Assembly: GCF_003952505.1 (NCBI RefSeq)
Contig: NZ_CP034450.1
Span: 2,542,001 to 2,606,000 of the forward strand
Direction of reading: 5' to 3'
Length of the DNA: 64,000 bases
Origin: Mesorhizobium sp. M4B.F.Ca.ET.058.02.1.1
GTDB lineage: Bacteria; Pseudomonadota; Alphaproteobacteria; Rhizobiales; Rhizobiaceae
The position numbers and the translations under genes are program-made. The stretch's first letter is position 1; each line of letters begins with the position of its first letter. Shown here in pieces: positions 31,078 to 38,652 of the stretch. The notes under the pieces are model-generated. The model saw nothing but the letters and a program-made list of their open reading frames with translations. It did not search any database and was not told the origin of the DNA.

Positions 31078-32313
31078 TTACTCGCCTGCCTTGAGTGGTT
31101 CGGTGTCGGCTCGGATCAGCTTGATGTCCGCCCCTGCCGCCCAGGCGCCGATGTCTTCCCGACGCAGCGCTGCCGCCATCATATCTGGGAAATGATCGGG
31201 CGTGCAGGCGAAAACCGGAACCCCGAGCGCGGCGACCGATCCAGCCATCGCGGGATCATAGCCGGGACGACCCTGATCGGTGAGCGCCAGCAGCACGACG
31301 ACATTGACGCCCGACCGGACCAGCGCTGCCAGCCGCTTGAGAAGCTCCTGGCCGTTGCCGCCCTCGTAGAGGTCGGTGATCAAAATGAAATGCGCCTTGG
31401 TCGGCCGCTCGATCCGCTCGGCGCAATAGGCGACCGCCTGGTTGATGTCGGTGCCGCCGCCAAGCTGGACGCCGAACAGCACCTCGACCGGATCGCTGAG
31501 CTCCTCCGTCAGGTCGACGATCGCCGTGTCGAAGCAGACCAGCTTGGTGCGCACCACCGGCAGCGAGGCCATCACCGCAGCGAAGATAGAGGCGTAGATG
31601 ACCGAGCTTGCCATCGAGCCGGACTGGTCAACGCACAGCGTCACCTCGTCGAGGTCGACCAGCCGGCGCTGACGCCGCATGAAGCCGACCAGCCTTTCCG
31701 GCACGACCGTCTTGTGGTCGGGCTGATAGTGGCGAAGGTTCGCCGCGATGGTGCGCGGCCAGTCGATGTCGCGCTGCCGTGGCCGGTTGGTGCGCCGCGA
31801 CCGGTCGAGCGCGCCGCGGATCGCCTCGGCGGTCTTTTGCTCGAGGCGCTGCATCAGCTTGGCGACGATGTCGGAGATGATCGAACGGGCGATATCCTTG
31901 GTCTTGTCCGGCATCGCCGAACGCAGCGAGACCAAATCCGCGACGAGATTGACGTCCGCCTCGATCGCCTTGAGGAACTCCGGCTCCATCAGCATCTGCT
32001 TCAGGTTCAGTCGCTCGAAGGCGTCCTTCTGCACGACCTGGACGACCTGCTCGGGAAAGAACGAGCGGATATCACCCATCCATTGCGCGACGCGCGGCGC
32101 CGAGCGGCCGAGCCCGCCGCGCCGTTTGCGCGGATCGCCGGCCGTGTCGCCGCTGTTGTCGCCATAAAGCGCGTCGAGCGCCGCCGAAAGCCGCCGATCC
32201 TCGGCGGAGAGTGCCGACGAGGACGCATCGTCGGCGCCGATCGCCAGCCGCCAGCGGCGTTCCCGCGTTCCTCCCGTCGGCTCGAGGTCCGGCCCGATCG
32301 CATCGTCATCCAT
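31078..32313 (-). CDS. vWA-domain protein of the MoxR/DUF5682/DUF5691/SWIM operon
   Basis: A 411-residue protein with a basic, poorly structured N-terminal third, a helical middle (about 90-210) and a C-terminal von Willebrand factor A domain. The MIDAS is complete: D229-Q-S231-G-S233-M, T288 in GGGTDI and D314 in LITDLYEGG. MoxR-type ATPases characteristically work with such metal-binding vWA partners in protein assembly or remodelling. ATG 32313 lies inside the DUF5682-like gene (8-base overlap), so the two are translationally coupled. It is the last gene of the five-gene operon. Confidence 0.88.
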   Translation of the reverse strand: MDDDAIGPDLEPTGGTRERRWRLAIGADDASSSALSAEDRRLSAALDALYGDNSGDTAGDPRKRRGGLGRSAPRVAQWMGDIRSFFPEQVVQVVQKDAFERLNLKQMLMEPEFLKAIEADVNLVADLVSLRSAMPDKTKDIARSIISDIVAKLMQRLEQKTAEAIRGALDRSRRTNRPRQRDIDWPRTIAANLRHYQPDHKTVVPERLVGFMRRQRRLVDLDEVTLCVDQSGSMASSVIYASIFAAVMASLPVVRTKLVCFDTAIVDLTEELSDPVEVLFGVQLGGGTDINQAVAYCAERIERPTKAHFILITDLYEGGNGQELLKRLAALVRSGVNVVVLLALTDQGRPGYDPAMAGSVAALGVPVFACTPDHFPDMMAAALRREDIGAWAAGADIKLIRADTEPLKAGE

Positions 32314-34564
32314 GGCTGGGCTCCCCTGAAAGCAGCTTGCCGAGGAGACCAAAGTGCCGGCGCCAGGCTTCGCCGCCGTCGGGCGTCGGCGTCAGCCCGG
32401 CGGGCAGGCTCGCTCCTTTGCCGAGCACCGCTTCGATCAAACGCCGGCGCTCCATGCTGTCGAGGTTGGAGAAGACGCGGCGCAGCAAGGGCAGATGCGC
32501 AACGAAGGCCTCTTCGTCGAGTGAGGCAAGCCATGCATCGACGGCGCCGCGCAGACCCTCGTCATAGATCAGTCGCTGACCGGCGCCGCTGAAGAAGCCC
32601 TCGAAGAAAGCGGCAGCGTCGATGACCGGCGTCCCGGGTGACAGGCGCTTTGCCAAAAGGTCGGCCGCGCCCTCTGCGGAGAGCCGTCCGGCCTCGTAGA
32701 GCAGATGGGCCGCGCAACCGGCAACGAGCGCTGTCGATCGCGACGAATCGAGCACGGCCGCGAGGCCGCCGCGCCAGGCATCCACGACATCCTCGCCCGG
32801 CTCCACCAGCCTGATCGCCTCGTCGGCCTTGCGCATCGCGCCGATCAACGCCGCGGCGGCCTGAACGTCGAGATCGCGCGCGGCGTAGGGCAGCGCGATC
32901 GAGCCCTCGACGATTAGCCGCTCCAGTAGGCCCGCAAGGCGCTCCGTCTCGGTCTTGCGCGCTTCGCCGTAGCGGATGATGTCGGCCAGCGGCGGCACCG
33001 AAGCCAGAAGTTCCAGGCATTCGCTGCTGTGTGCCGCTTTTTCCTCCAGCGCGACGAGGCCAGCAGCGGAAGCTTCACTGAGAGCCGCCGTGATGGCGCC
33101 CTGGACCAGCGCGGCCAGGGTGTCGAGTGTCGCGGCGGCGGCGATCATCTGAACCAGGCGGCCGTTGGCGGCCTTCTCGATGGTCGGGCCGTAGACCAGG
33201 TTCTCGACCAGTTGAACGGCATACTCCGGCTGCCAGGCCAGCATCCAGCGCTCGCGAAAGGTGCCGCGGCTGCGCCCGGTGTCGGTCAGCTTGCCCCAGT
33301 TCACGCCAAGCACGTTCAGCCGGTGCAGCAGCGTCGACCGAAACAGCCCGCTCTCGCTGCGCAGGTCGATGGAGAGCTCCCGTTCCAAGGCCTCGGGCTT
33401 CAGCCGCGCCGTCTTCTGGTTGCGCTGCAGGTCATCGATCAGCGGCGCCAGCGGCGTGTCCGGCGGTATCTCGCCGACATCGGCGCCTAGCAGCAATTCG
33501 GCCTCGACCATCTTCCACAGCAGGGCCTCGCCGTTGAACAGCCCTGCGATCGAAGCGTCGCGCAGTTCCTCGAAACCCGGCTTCGGCCGTTCGCGGATGG
33601 CCGCAAGCGCGCGCGCCAGACGTTCCGCCTCGATCAGCGACGCGGTCGAGATCATGTGGCCTTTCGCCCTGAGGACCGAAGCGATCCGCGCCAGCCACAG
33701 GATGGAAGAGTCGCCCTGCGCACGCGTCTGCCACAGATGCTTGCACCAGCCGGGCGCAACGACGCCGGCGCCGTAGCCATAGCCGAGCGCCAGGCGCGGC
33801 CCCGTCCACGGCGCGAAGGTCATCATGGTCTTGCGGCGGGCCATTCCCTTGAGCAGGGCCTGGTCGCTCTTTTGCGTATGCGCCGCCTGCAAGGCCGGCA
33901 CGTGCCAGGCGCCGCAGACGACCGCTAGCGGCCCATCGAACTCCTTGCGCGCGGCTGCGATTTCCAGCCGCATGTGCGCCTCGCGCATCGCCTCGAATTT
34001 GCCGATCACACCCTCGCCGTCGCGCAGCGTCGTCATCGCGTCGGCAATGGCCGCGAAGATCGGCCCCGGCGCGGGATTCTGCTCGATGATATCGGACCAC
34101 CAGCTTTCGCCATCCTCGTAGCCGGCGGCGCGCGCCAGGGTGCCGATCGGATCCTGGATGCGCGTCGCTTCCTCGCCTTGCTCTTCGACAGGTTCCGCTT
34201 CGGCGGTATCGGTGTCGGTCGGACTTTCGGGCGCCTTCTCGGCCAGCCGCGCCGCGGACGGCAGATCGATGAAGCGCAGCGCCGCCTTGTTGGCGACCGC
34301 CCACAACGCCGCCTGATATTCCGGCGAGAATTCGGCGAACGGCCAGAAGCTGGTCGCGGCCGGATCGTCCTCGGGATAGCAGAGCAGCGCCACCGGCGGC
34401 TTCATGTCGGGGCTGGCGAGCAGCGGCAACAGCGGCGACGCATCGACCGGCCCTTCGATCAACACGGCGACAGGCTGCAATTCCTGCAATGCCTTGACCA
34501 GGCTCTCGGCGGAGCCCGGTCCGTGGTGGCGGATGCCGAAATAACTGATGCCGCCCTCAGTCAT
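32306..34564 (-). CDS. DUF5682-family protein with TraB/TIKI-like motifs
   Basis: A 752-residue cytoplasmic protein without signal peptide or membrane segments. The N-terminus begins ISYFGIRHHGPGSAESL; G10-x2-H13, E37 (VLIEGP) and a second G218-x2-H221 (VVCGAWHVPAL) reproduce the spacing of the two GxxH motifs and Glu in TraB/TIKI/EreA-type hydrolases. The rest (about 290-750) is long, helical and unrecognised. I place it in DUF5682 by memory of the operon context and the FGIRHHGPGS motif. The gene starts three bases after the MoxR ATPase gene and overlaps the vWA gene. Its enzymatic activity is unproven. Confidence 0.8.
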   Translation of the reverse strand: MTEGGISYFGIRHHGPGSAESLVKALQELQPVAVLIEGPVDASPLLPLLASPDMKPPVALLCYPEDDPAATSFWPFAEFSPEYQAALWAVANKAALRFIDLPSAARLAEKAPESPTDTDTAEAEPVEEQGEEATRIQDPIGTLARAAGYEDGESWWSDIIEQNPAPGPIFAAIADAMTTLRDGEGVIGKFEAMREAHMRLEIAAARKEFDGPLAVVCGAWHVPALQAAHTQKSDQALLKGMARRKTMMTFAPWTGPRLALGYGYGAGVVAPGWCKHLWQTRAQGDSSILWLARIASVLRAKGHMISTASLIEAERLARALAAIRERPKPGFEELRDASIAGLFNGEALLWKMVEAELLLGADVGEIPPDTPLAPLIDDLQRNQKTARLKPEALERELSIDLRSESGLFRSTLLHRLNVLGVNWGKLTDTGRSRGTFRERWMLAWQPEYAVQLVENLVYGPTIEKAANGRLVQMIAAAATLDTLAALVQGAITAALSEASAAGLVALEEKAAHSSECLELLASVPPLADIIRYGEARKTETERLAGLLERLIVEGSIALPYAARDLDVQAAAALIGAMRKADEAIRLVEPGEDVVDAWRGGLAAVLDSSRSTALVAGCAAHLLYEAGRLSAEGAADLLAKRLSPGTPVIDAAAFFEGFFSGAGQRLIYDEGLRGAVDAWLASLDEEAFVAHLPLLRRVFSNLDSMERRRLIEAVLGKGASLPAGLTPTPDGGEAWRRHFGLLGKLLSGEPSHG

Positions 34565-34567
34565 GGC

Positions 34568-35647
34568 TCAGATGGCCGCGTTGAGCGCCGCGTAGTAGCC
34601 GGCATAGTCCGACCGCTTCTTCAGCACCGTCTCCAGATACTCCTCCAGCACGACCTTGTCCTGAACCGGATCCTTGACGATCGCGCCGACAAGGCTCGGC
34701 GCCAAACCTTCGGCGTGAAACTTGCCGTCGTCGAACCATGCCGCCTGGCTGAGGCCACTGATCACGGTTGCGATCGCCTCGGCGGTGGAGAGCGAGCCAG
34801 ATGGCGTCTTCAGCGTCACCTTGCCGTCGGCCGTCGCGCCGGAGCGCAACTCGCGGAAAATGGTGAGCACGCGGGCGATCTCCTCGCCGACATTCTTCGG
34901 CACTGGCAGGTCCAATCCGCCGGCCATCTCGCCGACGCGCCTGGAAACGATCGAAACCTCTTCCGCCATGTCCCCGGGCAGAGGCAGCACCACGACGTTG
35001 AAGCGGCGCTTCAGAGCCGAGGAGAGTTCGTTGACGCCCTTGTCGCGGTTGTTGGCGGTGGCGATGATGTTGAAGCCGCGCTGGGCGTAGATCGAGGTGT
35101 TGAGCTCCGGCACCGGCATCATCTTTTCCGACAGCACGGTGATCAGCGTGTCCTGCACGTCGGAGCCCATGCGCGTCAGCTCTTCCAGGCGGCAGAGCTT
35201 GCCTTCCTGCATGGCGCGGTACAGCGGCGTCGGCACAAGCGCCTCCTGGCTCGGGCCCTTCGCCAGCAACTGGGCATAGTTCCAGCCGTAGCGGATCTGG
35301 TTCTCGTCGGTTCCGGCGGTGCACTGCACGATCAGCGTGGAATTGCCCATGATGGCGCCGGCGAGATGTTCCGAAACCCAGGATTTCGCCGTTCCCGGCA
35401 CGCCGAGCAAAAGCAGAGCGCGATCGGTCGCGAGCGTGGCCACCGCCGTTTCCATCAATTGCCGGCGGCCGACATATTTCGGCGAAATCACCGTGCCGTC
35501 GTCCGCCTTGCCGCCCATCAGATAGGTAAGCACGGCCTTCGGCGACAGGCTCCAGCCGGCGGGCTTCTGGCGGTCGTCGCCGCGCGCGAGCGCCTGCAGT
35601 TCGGCGGCATAGACCTGCTCGGCCGGAAGGCGGATGGCTGCGTTCAT
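34568..35647 (-). CDS. MoxR-family AAA+ ATPase
   Basis: A 359-residue AAA+ ATPase. Walker A is GVPGTAKS at 82-89; the Walker B position reads LCRLEELTR (E155-E156), so the usual Asp is Glu. Sensor 1 is FNIIATANNRDKG and the arginine-finger region SSALKRRFNVVVLPLP. MoxR proteins act as chaperone-like remodellers with vWA partners. Overlap and spacing with DUF5691-like (19 bases) and DUF5682-like (3 bases) genes place it at the centre of the operon and mark it as the energy-using component. Confidence 0.9.
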   Translation of the reverse strand: MNAAIRLPAEQVYAAELQALARGDDRQKPAGWSLSPKAVLTYLMGGKADDGTVISPKYVGRRQLMETAVATLATDRALLLLGVPGTAKSWVSEHLAGAIMGNSTLIVQCTAGTDENQIRYGWNYAQLLAKGPSQEALVPTPLYRAMQEGKLCRLEELTRMGSDVQDTLITVLSEKMMPVPELNTSIYAQRGFNIIATANNRDKGVNELSSALKRRFNVVVLPLPGDMAEEVSIVSRRVGEMAGGLDLPVPKNVGEEIARVLTIFRELRSGATADGKVTLKTPSGSLSTAEAIATVISGLSQAAWFDDGKFHAEGLAPSLVGAIVKDPVQDKVVLEEYLETVLKKRSDYAGYYAALNAAI

Positions 35648-35666
35648 GCGATCATCTCCGGGTTGA

Positions 35667-37112
35667 TCATCTGTTGGATTGGGAAGGCTTTTCGGCCAGC
35701 GCCGCGTTGATCCGCAGCAGGCCGAGCGATGGGGATGCGGGCGGCAGGCCGGCGGCGACGACCTCGCCGATCAATTTCTCCGCCGTCGCCGCCGTGGCGA
35801 GAAAGCCTATGGCCTCGAGATACTGCTCAGCGCTTCGTTTCATGACGTCGTTGTCGCCCGAGACGGCGGAGCGCAGCGCCGAAAGCGTCTTGCCTTTTGC
35901 GAGGTCGCCCCATTCCAGCCAGCCTGCTTCGGCGCCTTCGACCTGATTTAGCGCGTGCAGATTCTGCGCGTCATTCAGGATCTGACTGATCAGGAGACGC
36001 TTCCTGCCGCCGTCCAAACGCAACATGAGTTGGAGGACGAGAAGCGCCAGCTTGCCGCCTTCGGCGACAAGCATATCCGCCAAACAGGCCACCGCCGCAT
36101 CGCTGCCGGACACCGAGACCATTAGAACGAGAAAACGATCGGCATTGTCATCGACGCCGAATTGCCATGCGCCGATGAATTCAGGCTCTGTCTTGCCGAA
36201 GCGAGCGACAAGATCGCCGAGGTAGCAGGATGCGAACAAGTCGGCGCGACGGGCTTGTTGCGCAGGCGACTTGAGTTTTGTCGGTGCGTAGGTGGTGCGG
36301 CGGCGAATGAAGCCGGATTTACCTTCCTCGATGAAAGCGGCAAGCTCGGCTGTCGGATCTTCCGACCCGCCATCAGCCGGATTGCCATGCTCTCCCAACC
36401 TTGCCAGGAGCCGGCCGGCCATTTCGCGCACCTTGCCCGAGCGATCGGCGGACAGGCTCTTCAGGAACGGCACGTCGTCGGCACCCAGGCCGAAGCGCAT
36501 GAGTTCGACGAGCGCTAGCCTGACCTCCGCCGGCTCGCTGGCCCCTTTGGTCTCGATAAGCGTTCGCGCCAAGGCAGGTGTGGTGCGCCGCAAATCGATC
36601 AGTGCGGTACGGCGCGCCGCGGGATAGAAATCATCCCAGGTCTCCGCAGTCAGTTGCTCGCGCCGGGACTGTTTCTCACCGTCCGCGCCTGCCTGCCAGT
36701 CGACCCAAGGGGCATAGACCTCGGGACTTTCCTGATCCGACGCAGCGGCCATCCAATCCATCGGATGCAGCACGAAGCCGCGGCTGGCGACGAGCGCGGC
36801 CACGCGGGTCTTGAGCCTCACTTCGGCTGCATATTTCAATGCAGCACGCAGCAACGGCCGCAGCCGTTCCGGGAGCGTCGGCATGGCCAGCACCGGCAGC
36901 GGCGGACGGCGTTTCAAGGTTTTCGCCGCCGCCGGCCGAAGCGCGACATCGAGCGCCTGCGCGGCAATGGCCAGCAGCCGCCTCTGCTGCTCGTCCGGGC
37001 TGGCCGCAGCCGCCACTTCCTTCCATTCGGCAGGGGCAAGTTCGAAAGCGGCGCCGCCGGAAATCCAGCCGTCGCGCAACCTTGCCAGCCCTGCCTGCTC
37101 GAGTTCGTTCAC
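35667..37112 (-). CDS. DUF5691-family protein (helical repeat)
   Basis: A 481-residue soluble protein rich in Leu/Ala helices, reading like HEAT-type repeats (for example ARRTALIDLRR, RTLIETKGASEPAEVRLALVEL, DRSGKVREMAGRLLARLG). No catalytic motif is visible. Operon context identifies it as the DUF5691 partner usually found with SWIM, MoxR, DUF5682 and vWA proteins. The start is GTG 37112, overlapping the SWIM-protein stop as GTGA; the upstream extension of the frame to 37415 is antisense-like sequence over the SWIM gene. Likely a scaffold or recognition subunit (inference). Confidence 0.78.
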   Translation of the reverse strand: MNELEQAGLARLRDGWISGGAAFELAPAEWKEVAAAASPDEQQRRLLAIAAQALDVALRPAAAKTLKRRPPLPVLAMPTLPERLRPLLRAALKYAAEVRLKTRVAALVASRGFVLHPMDWMAAASDQESPEVYAPWVDWQAGADGEKQSRREQLTAETWDDFYPAARRTALIDLRRTTPALARTLIETKGASEPAEVRLALVELMRFGLGADDVPFLKSLSADRSGKVREMAGRLLARLGEHGNPADGGSEDPTAELAAFIEEGKSGFIRRRTTYAPTKLKSPAQQARRADLFASCYLGDLVARFGKTEPEFIGAWQFGVDDNADRFLVLMVSVSGSDAAVACLADMLVAEGGKLALLVLQLMLRLDGGRKRLLISQILNDAQNLHALNQVEGAEAGWLEWGDLAKGKTLSALRSAVSGDNDVMKRSAEQYLEAIGFLATAATAEKLIGEVVAAGLPPASPSLGLLRINAALAEKPSQSNR

Positions 37113-38509
37113 GACAGATCGAGCCTCCCCATATTGCTCTGCGACGCAAGAAGCTCGAGCCTGGCGCCGTTCCAGAGCGCCGCCGTGGCTGCAAGCTCGA
37201 GGCCGAGCAACGTCTGGTTGACCGATCCCGCGACAGGCAGGGCAATGCCGTGCGGATCGCCCGCAGCCTGCCACCAGGCGCCTTCCTTCTCGTCCAGCGC
37301 GATCGCGCCGGCAGGCAGGATGACCGGGCAATCCGACAGCCATGGCGCGCCGTCCTGGAAGGCGGCATAGGCGGCAAGCGGATCGCCGGCTGCGTCCGAG
37401 CCGAAGGCTGGCCAAGCGCCTGGTGCCGAATCACCGAGCCGTTCCACGACCAGCGCCCGTAGCGGATTGCGCGATGGATAGAATACGAGCTTGGCCTTGA
37501 AGCGATCTCCCGGCGCGAAGGCGCCGGACCGGCGCCCGGCCGAAGCCGGGAAGAAATCGAGCAGAACGGCAAATCGCGGCGCCGGGCTCTTCAGATCGAG
37601 CAGCCATGTCGCATGGCTGACAAGCCCGTCGCGGCGGGTTTCTATCTTCTCGCCGAGCACCTCCCAATCGCTCTCGACCTGAACGGCGTCGGGGTTGGCG
37701 AGGACCTGCTCGCGCGTCTCAGATGTCGACACAAGTCGTTTCAGCTCGGGATCATCGGGCGTGGCGCGCCAAGCCTTGGCGAGCATCACCAGCTTGCCGA
37801 GCTCGCGGATCGCGGCATCCGGCTTCTCCTCGCCGCGCAGCGCCATCAACCGCGCCGGCAACTCGTCGACGCGGCCGGCAAGCGCTGTGGCCTTGAGGTC
37901 GACCAGCCGGGCTGCAATGCGGCGGCAGCGCTCGCTGCAGGCATCGACGAACCCGGCAAGGCCGAGCCGGAGCTGGTCGGCTATCCATTGATCGAGCTCG
38001 TCCAGCGCTGCCGCCACGGCGCTTCGCGTGTCCTCGGCCCGCTTGCGCTGTGCCGCCTCGCGGCGTTCAGCGGCCACGGCATCTTCGACCGGAGCGCTCT
38101 GCTCGGGCCGCGATGCCTCGTCGATGCTTTTGCCTTCCGAGTTTGCCGCCGCCTGCGTCGCTGGCTGCCCGGGCCGGCGGCGCCGGCCGAGCCAGTCGTT
38201 GACCCAATCCGGCGTCTGCTCGACGCGATCGAAGCTGGCCGGCGCGGTGGCGCCGATCCACATCAGCCCCAGTATGTGCTTGCACGGGAATTTCCGCGAC
38301 GGACAGGTGCATTTGTAGCCATGGTCGCCGGTATCGAATGCTACACGGTAGGGATTCGATCCCGAGCCCTGGCATTCGCCCCAGATGAGCCCCAGTTGCT
38401 CATTTGTCTCGAGCCGAGGCCAGTTCGACCGCTTGGTCAGCTTCGAGGCGGCGCTGAGCGAGGCCTGGTCAGGGGCAAGCGCTTCAATGGTTTTCAGGTC
38501 CAGTTGCAA
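37109..38509 (-). CDS. SWIM zinc-finger protein
   Basis: A 466-residue protein with a SWIM finger C67-T-C69-x6-C76-K-H78 (YKCTCPSRKFPCKHILGLMW). A central proline/charged linker (about 110-160) and a C-terminal helical and beta-rich region follow without known motifs. SWIM fingers bind DNA or protein. TTG 38509 is the probable start (AGAGG just upstream); no in-frame ATG is available near it. It is the first gene of the five-gene operon and overlaps the next by four bases. Confidence 0.85.
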   Translation of the reverse strand: MQLDLKTIEALAPDQASLSAASKLTKRSNWPRLETNEQLGLIWGECQGSGSNPYRVAFDTGDHGYKCTCPSRKFPCKHILGLMWIGATAPASFDRVEQTPDWVNDWLGRRRRPGQPATQAAANSEGKSIDEASRPEQSAPVEDAVAAERREAAQRKRAEDTRSAVAAALDELDQWIADQLRLGLAGFVDACSERCRRIAARLVDLKATALAGRVDELPARLMALRGEEKPDAAIRELGKLVMLAKAWRATPDDPELKRLVSTSETREQVLANPDAVQVESDWEVLGEKIETRRDGLVSHATWLLDLKSPAPRFAVLLDFFPASAGRRSGAFAPGDRFKAKLVFYPSRNPLRALVVERLGDSAPGAWPAFGSDAAGDPLAAYAAFQDGAPWLSDCPVILPAGAIALDEKEGAWWQAAGDPHGIALPVAGSVNQTLLGLELAATAALWNGARLELLASQSNMGRLDLS

Positions 38510-38652
38510 GCCGCGCCTCTCATGACCCCGAAGTATGATTCCGCGACGATAGATAGCCGTTTGCGGCGCGCTGGTGTAGCTCCAGCCGCCGCAAAGTTAA
38601 TTCCTTGTCTAACGTTCGGTTTCCTGATCAGGCCGGGCCGGTAATGTCGGCT
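38510..38652. other. Spacer upstream of the SWIM operon
   Basis: This 143-base stretch separates the SWIM gene start from the aminotransferase stop. It should hold the promoter of the five-gene operon (minus strand). I see no convincing -35/-10 pair, palindrome or terminator in it. Confidence 0.4.

Follow-up and report, generated by a model that had tools for sequence, protein, structure and literature searches.

MoxR-vWA pairs have been described as machines in which a peptide is gripped through the metal ion-dependent adhesion site (MIDAS) and force is transmitted by the MoxR ATPase (PMC7159879, in the passages that treat these pairs). Ternary systems that combine MoxR and vWA with a beta-propeller protein are represented in Pfam by the bpMoxR domain. 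YehL is listed as one of seven MoxR subfamilies in the relevant passage of PMC3893208 and as one of nine in that of PMC11432383. Here, we describe a five-gene operon from Mesorhizobium sp. M4B.F.Ca.ET.058.02.1.1, which lies in a stretch of 64,000 nucleotides (the window) and encodes a SWIM zinc-finger protein, a DUF5691 protein, a MoxR-clade AAA+ ATPase, a DUF5682 protein and a CoxE-type vWA protein. The operon is a variant of the YehL-type set of Escherichia coli: it has SWIM and DUF5691, where the E. coli type has DUF4132 and WGR together with another kind of SWIM protein. What is new here is the prediction of a TIKI-like N-terminal domain in DUF5682/YehM, whose two GxxH motifs are almost invariant, as is a Glu. 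We propose, with a probability of roughly 40%, that the five genes encode a single machine of the YehL-MoxR type, in which an ATP-driven MoxR-vWA pair would feed or gate a TIKI-type hydrolase, with targeting by SWIM-DUF5691.

The host genome of the operon is a single 6.46-Mb contig. An open reading frame (ORF) check of the window placed five minus-strand ORFs in one block at 31078-38509, with the coordinates and joints that an earlier note on this DNA had given, and Pfam confirmed the family names of all five proteins, every score being above the curated cut-off. The SWIM gene (37109-38509, TTG start, 466 amino acids; Pfam SWIM, E 2.5e-5), encoding the proposed targeting subunit, is joined to the DUF5691 gene (35667-37112, 481 amino acids; E 1.1e-17) by a GTGA overlap at 37109-37112, in which the GTG start of the latter overlaps the SWIM stop. 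After a gap of 19 bases follows the MoxR gene (34568-35647, 359 amino acids; AAA_5, E 1.8e-38), whose product is related to E. coli YehL, and only 3 bases further the DUF5682 gene (32306-34564, 752 amino acids; E 2.3e-209), related to YehM. The vWA gene (31078-32352; VWA_CoxE, E 9e-56), whose MIDAS-bearing product is related to YehP, overlaps the DUF5682 gene by 8 bases if it starts at the ATG at 32313 (411 amino acids), or by 47 bases from the longer TTG start at 32352 (424 amino acids). The partial DUF5691 match spans positions 55-243 of 491 only. We regard this protein as a putative adaptor or scaffold; the single pointer to the scaffold role assigned by the earlier note is a weak HEAT match in Pfam (E 0.1), so that this assignment stays tentative. 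Within 38510-38652, a block about 30-80 bases upstream of the SWIM start is kept among Mesorhizobium copies, the remaining upstream sequence being different, and represents a possible candidate promoter.

To describe the set in other genomes, DUF5682 was used as bait in a scan of genome contigs, and from 581 confirmed stretches the 80 best named loci were taken, for which reason they lean to close relatives. Profiles built from the window proteins were then run over 92 loci, these 80 and 12 stretches from other genomes, and matched DUF5682 in 92, MoxR in 91, vWA in 85, DUF5691 in 81 and SWIM in 79. All five genes are present in 72 of the 80 named loci, and in 69 they follow the order SWIM-DUF5691-MoxR-DUF5682-vWA on a single strand. 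Five of the eight incomplete loci (L051, L069, L076, L100 and L104) reach a contig end, and the other three (L063, L064 and L094) lack some of the genes inside their stretches. Judging from the record titles, from which we assigned the higher ranks, the hosts belong to the Alpha-, Beta- and Gammaproteobacteria, Bacteroidota, Cyanobacteria, Acidobacteria, Verrucomicrobia, Planctomycetes and Actinobacteria. The conserved co-occurrence on which the earlier note had made its proposal depend is thus found in several phyla. Pairwise distances of the five proteins, calculated for the window and 67 loci with seven of the eight close Mesorhizobium copies excluded, correlate with r between 0.855 and 0.908 in the ten pairs (maximum of 200 permutations per pair, 0.141), although part of this correlation would be expected from the shared descent of the hosts alone. 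The five genes are therefore one conserved unit that is inherited together. At one locus (L040:191-7439) the order is permuted to MoxR-DUF5682-vWA-SWIM-DUF5691, all on the same strand. Candidate fusions of MoxR with DUF5682 (L024, L026) and of vWA with SWIM (L023) were rejected, since the reading frames differ; Pfam found only DUF5682 in L026:6224-9667.

An even draw of the phylum revealed a second operon type. DUF5682 occurs in 12 of 299 genomes, the host itself included, and among 12 stretches from the remaining 11 genomes, five carry the five-gene set (L015-L019) and seven a set like that of E. coli (L020-L026). The latter contain MoxR and DUF5682 in 7/7 cases and vWA in 5/7, together with a DUF4132-like gene recognized by clustering, which Pfam confirmed in all five stretches tested (L020, L022, L023, L025 and L026). 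The E. coli locus consists of yehF (WGR), the pseudogene yehH, yehI (DUF4132), yehK, yehL (MoxR), yehM, yehP (vWA) and yehQ (SWIM). It resembles the window in the matching order of MoxR, DUF5682 and vWA (42% identity for YehL, 29% for YehM and 36% for YehP; 407, 438 and 418 bits with the window profiles) and in the presence of a SWIM protein. It differs in that the SWIM gene is last in E. coli and first in the window, that DUF5691 is absent, and that DUF4132 and WGR genes adjoin. The window's SWIM and DUF5691 profiles had no match among the E. coli yeh proteins; a profile comparison of SWIM with YehQ aligned 19 columns (E 0.026), the zinc motif being all that is common, and that of DUF5691 with DUF4132 gave E 0.0064, which we do not count as a relationship. 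The targeting genes thus differ between the two lineages, whereas the MoxR-DUF5682-vWA core is constant. Clustering placed a DUF4132-like gene near the five-gene set in the Bacteroidota loci L073, L078, L080, L082 and L087, confirmed by Pfam in the three that were tested (L078, L080 and L082), and these loci therefore link the two operon types. The window's operon itself contains no DUF4132 or WGR gene. Elsewhere in the same genome lies a lone DUF4132 protein of 1122 amino acids with a DUF7737 domain (L108:7291-10659, at about 1.21 Mb of the contig), which could work with the operon despite its remote location.

The label of a poorly described system, given by the earlier note, therefore needs to be narrowed: the set is only partly undescribed, as MoxR, DUF5682 and vWA are homologues of YehL, YehM and YehP, and YehL is a published MoxR subfamily. 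It still fits in that the passages naming YehL give no function for this subfamily. Among the papers listed for yehL, yehM, yehP or yehQ, none is by its title a study of the operon, and we found no mention of DUF5682 or DUF5691 in a search that left most subscription papers outside its range. The paper on the ternary systems, PMC7159879, contains no words starting with SWIM or yeh.

The motifs of the operon's proteins were inspected in alignments that contain both the window's and the E. coli sequences. In MoxR, the Walker A residues of GxPGTAK (G82, P84-K88) and the Walker B residues of RxEExTR (R153, E155, E156, T158 and R159) are found in 93/93 non-gap rows, for Walker B including E. coli YehL. 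The vWA protein has its MIDAS residues D242, S244, S246, T301 and D327 in 87/87 rows, and the SWIM zinc ligands C67, C69, C76 and H78 are kept in 78/78 non-gap rows. A pairing of MoxR with a MIDAS-bearing vWA protein, as the earlier note had it, is accordingly present with intact motifs.

In the proposed machine, DUF5682 would supply a TIKI-type site. A fold search with a model of its N-terminal part alone predicted a TIKI/ChaN/EreA fold for residues ∼1-300, and in the structure models the C-terminal part is long and helical. In its TraB form, the signature of the TIKI/TraB superfamily reads GxxH, Glu, GxxH. This signature is present in DUF5682/YehM: R12, H13, H14 and E37 occur in 94/94 rows and G10 in 89/94, and the second motif is found with G218 in 87/87 and H221 in 88/88 non-gap rows. 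H13, E37 and H221 are kept in the two operon types even where identity falls to 25-30%. A comparison with the TraB_PrgY_gumN profile gave E 3.2e-4 (probability 39) for the longer ORFs and E 0.0017 with trimmed domains, which is only suggestive of a kinship with TraB. On the basis of the predicted fold and the invariant residues, DUF5682 is the likely enzyme of the set, in agreement with the effector role proposed for it by the earlier note.

Several observations weigh against the machine with a TIKI-type hydrolase. The TraB profile alignment covers the region of the second GxxH, with the first lying outside. The N-terminal model retrieved nothing significant from the Protein Data Bank with Foldseek (best E 0.25), and fold searches with the full-length model yielded helical proteins only, of the helical-repeat kind. 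Where the 2His/2Glu set described for RRSP has its first Glu, DUF5682 has an Arg, namely the invariant R12, and according to the part of PMC6254334 that deals with it, the TIKI-fold protein PMT is devoid of the catalytic set; for both reasons the DUF5682 site could be non-catalytic. Finally, the patchy distribution in the genus, where 18 of 41 genomes including the host's own carry DUF5682, is as compatible with conflict as with an accessory function in stress. Searches of solved chains gave nothing credible for the DUF5682 profile (best E 0.86) and no match for one TraB protein, and a Tetrahymena chain occupies rows 1-3 of the N-terminal fold search. If DUF5682 were a TIKI-fold pseudoenzyme, its conserved pocket would bind a ligand or peptide and act as a sensor, the real output being remodeling by MoxR-vWA. 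The SPE and REAxM motifs are, like R12, no less invariant than the His and Glu residues, so that the pocket would not simply reproduce an active site already known, and PMT provides a precedent. The conservation of H13, E37 and H221 in both operon types argues the other way, and we consider a pseudoenzyme very unlikely.

For the preferred machine with a TIKI-type hydrolase, we envisage that the SWIM-DUF5691 module would recognize the target and that the MIDAS of the vWA protein would grip a peptide belonging either to the target or to DUF5682. Powered by ATP, the MoxR ring would pull on this peptide, and the target would then be fed to the hydrolase site of DUF5682, or the pulling would switch this site on, so that a peptide or ester bond may be cut. 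SWIM and DUF5691, taken together as the putative targeting module, stand in one open frame in two loci, L084 (by Pfam) and L097. As the setting, stress or the quality control of proteins or nucleoproteins is more likely than phage defense. A target linked to nucleic acid, which is speculation, would be in keeping with SWIM and WGR, with the few repair neighbors and with a report on Deinococcus, where WGR and DUF4132 genes rise upon depletion of DdrO (PMC8533742, in the passage concerned). A more far-reaching version, which we find rather doubtful, would see in both lineages an unrecognized ATP-dependent cutting machine, with MoxR-vWA as unfoldase and gripper, TIKI-fold DUF5682/YehM as cutter and targeting modules that can be exchanged, which would be SWIM-DUF5691 in one lineage and DUF4132/WGR plus YehQ in the other. 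If true, this would be an AAA+ protease with a peptidase from the TIKI superfamily, and most E. coli genomes would encode a counterpart.

The earlier note had also linked the operon to biological conflict, in which case DUF5682 would be a toxic effector freed by MoxR-vWA, as in the vWA-MoxR ternary systems, acting against phages or otherwise. The distribution in Mesorhizobium, where a protein under the name M. abyssinicae is 95% identical to the window's DUF5682, is in line with such a role, and gain, loss and inversion involve the operon as one block. In one carrier (G300), it abuts an MgtC-like gene as in the window, with an aminotransferase gene 9 kb from SWIM. In a genome without DUF5682 (G055), MgtC-like and aminotransferase genes are 9 kb apart and nothing between them matches the five proteins; a clean empty site was not found there, as other DNA fills these ∼9 kb. 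In two further loci (L031, L167) the operon has the opposite orientation beside a SorC-like regulator. The window's MoxR passes the bpMoxR cut-off of Pfam (29.2 versus 27 bits), its best family still being AAA_5. A copy on Methylosinus plasmid pOB3b3 (L169:5064-11223) comprises SWIM, DUF5691, an AAA ATPase and DUF5682 amid transposase genes; vWA is not listed after DUF5682 in the plasmid's gene table, which is incomplete. Some neighbors also have a defense or RNA-repair character: in L079:1068-16286 the operon immediately follows the RNA-repair genes Hen1 and Pnkp and is in turn followed by an MmeI-type restriction-modification gene, a reverse transcriptase (L053) and RtcB (L062) are neighbors elsewhere, a C5 methylase gene lies inside the operon in L093, and GmrSD adjoins it in L094. 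A search with an RtcB signature gave no match.

Other results point away from conflict. In PADLOC, none of the five proteins had a match with E under 0.005, the best being mad8 (E 0.0056), and the MadB-family score of 50.9 bits falls far short of the NCBIfam cut-off of 475 for the MadB/Mad8 ATPase of the MADS defense system. VMAP, iSTAND/STAND, FtsH-like or beta-propeller third components of ternary systems did not exceed the Pfam cut-off in any of the five proteins. Mobile carriage is rare, with 28 of 72,556 plasmid records and one phage record out of 50,697, the latter a contig that is unverified and lacks annotation, and two patterns drawn from the five-gene type found no match in viral contigs. 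In E. coli, 5162/5426 genomes have a place, at a median of one, that covers yehLMPQ by 80% or more, and this counterpart is thus near-core. The part of PMC10652928 concerned describes its loss from strain DGF-298 inside a 29,182-base deletion.

To survey the flanks, a codon-model script was used to call genes in 60 loci; of the 205 near genes obtained, 134 were drawn. Twenty of these were excluded by hand, most of them DUF4132 genes or ORFs that were short or distant, leaving 114 for scanning, and the L093 methylase and L094 GmrSD genes were added by hand to give 116, both of which inflate the defense count. The results cover 25 of 113 PADLOC and 25 of 148 Pfam families, as raw counts without a background rate. 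Among the families listed for the 116 proteins, the PADLOC model mad3 matched three and every other model one. Given the E. coli counterpart, the PADLOC result for the five proteins and the lack of a strongly recurring defense family in the flanks, we see no support for a conflict role and regard it as clearly unlikely.

The same flanks bear on an assembly factor, in which MoxR and the CoxE-type vWA protein would mature one client enzyme in the manner of CoxD-CoxE or RavA-ViaA, and DUF5682 would be a ChaN-like carrier of metal or haem, or a client-binding platform, rather than a hydrolase. No recurring client enzyme was seen beside the operon: the flank Pfam families are mixed, and the commonest, GNAT, has only four members among the 116 proteins. 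In the relevant part of PMC8533742, the Deinococcus molybdate genes did not respond together with the DUF4132/WGR genes. Such a factor appears rather unlikely to us. For the hydrolase machine, the predicted YehM active site makes an anonymous operon of most E. coli genomes testable in a laboratory strain.

Compared with known systems, the operon shares with the vWA-MoxR ternary conflict systems the MoxR-vWA core and a MoxR that reaches the bpMoxR cut-off, but the Pfam matches of its five proteins include no beta-propeller, VMAP or STAND component. With RavA-ViaA, CoxD-CoxE, NorQ and midasin it has in common a MoxR-clade ATPase and a vWA partner, and midasin and NorQ are the solved chains nearest in sequence in a profile search. 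Walker B motifs usually have the form Asp-Glu; the window's MoxR branch differs from these systems in its Glu-Glu. To our knowledge, TIKI-like and SWIM partners are not known from any of them. DUF5682 differs from the TIKI/TraB/ChaN/EreA superfamily by its Arg at the position of the first Glu of RRSP and by its long helical C-terminal part, and resembles it in the predicted N-terminal fold and in the two GxxH motifs with their Glu.
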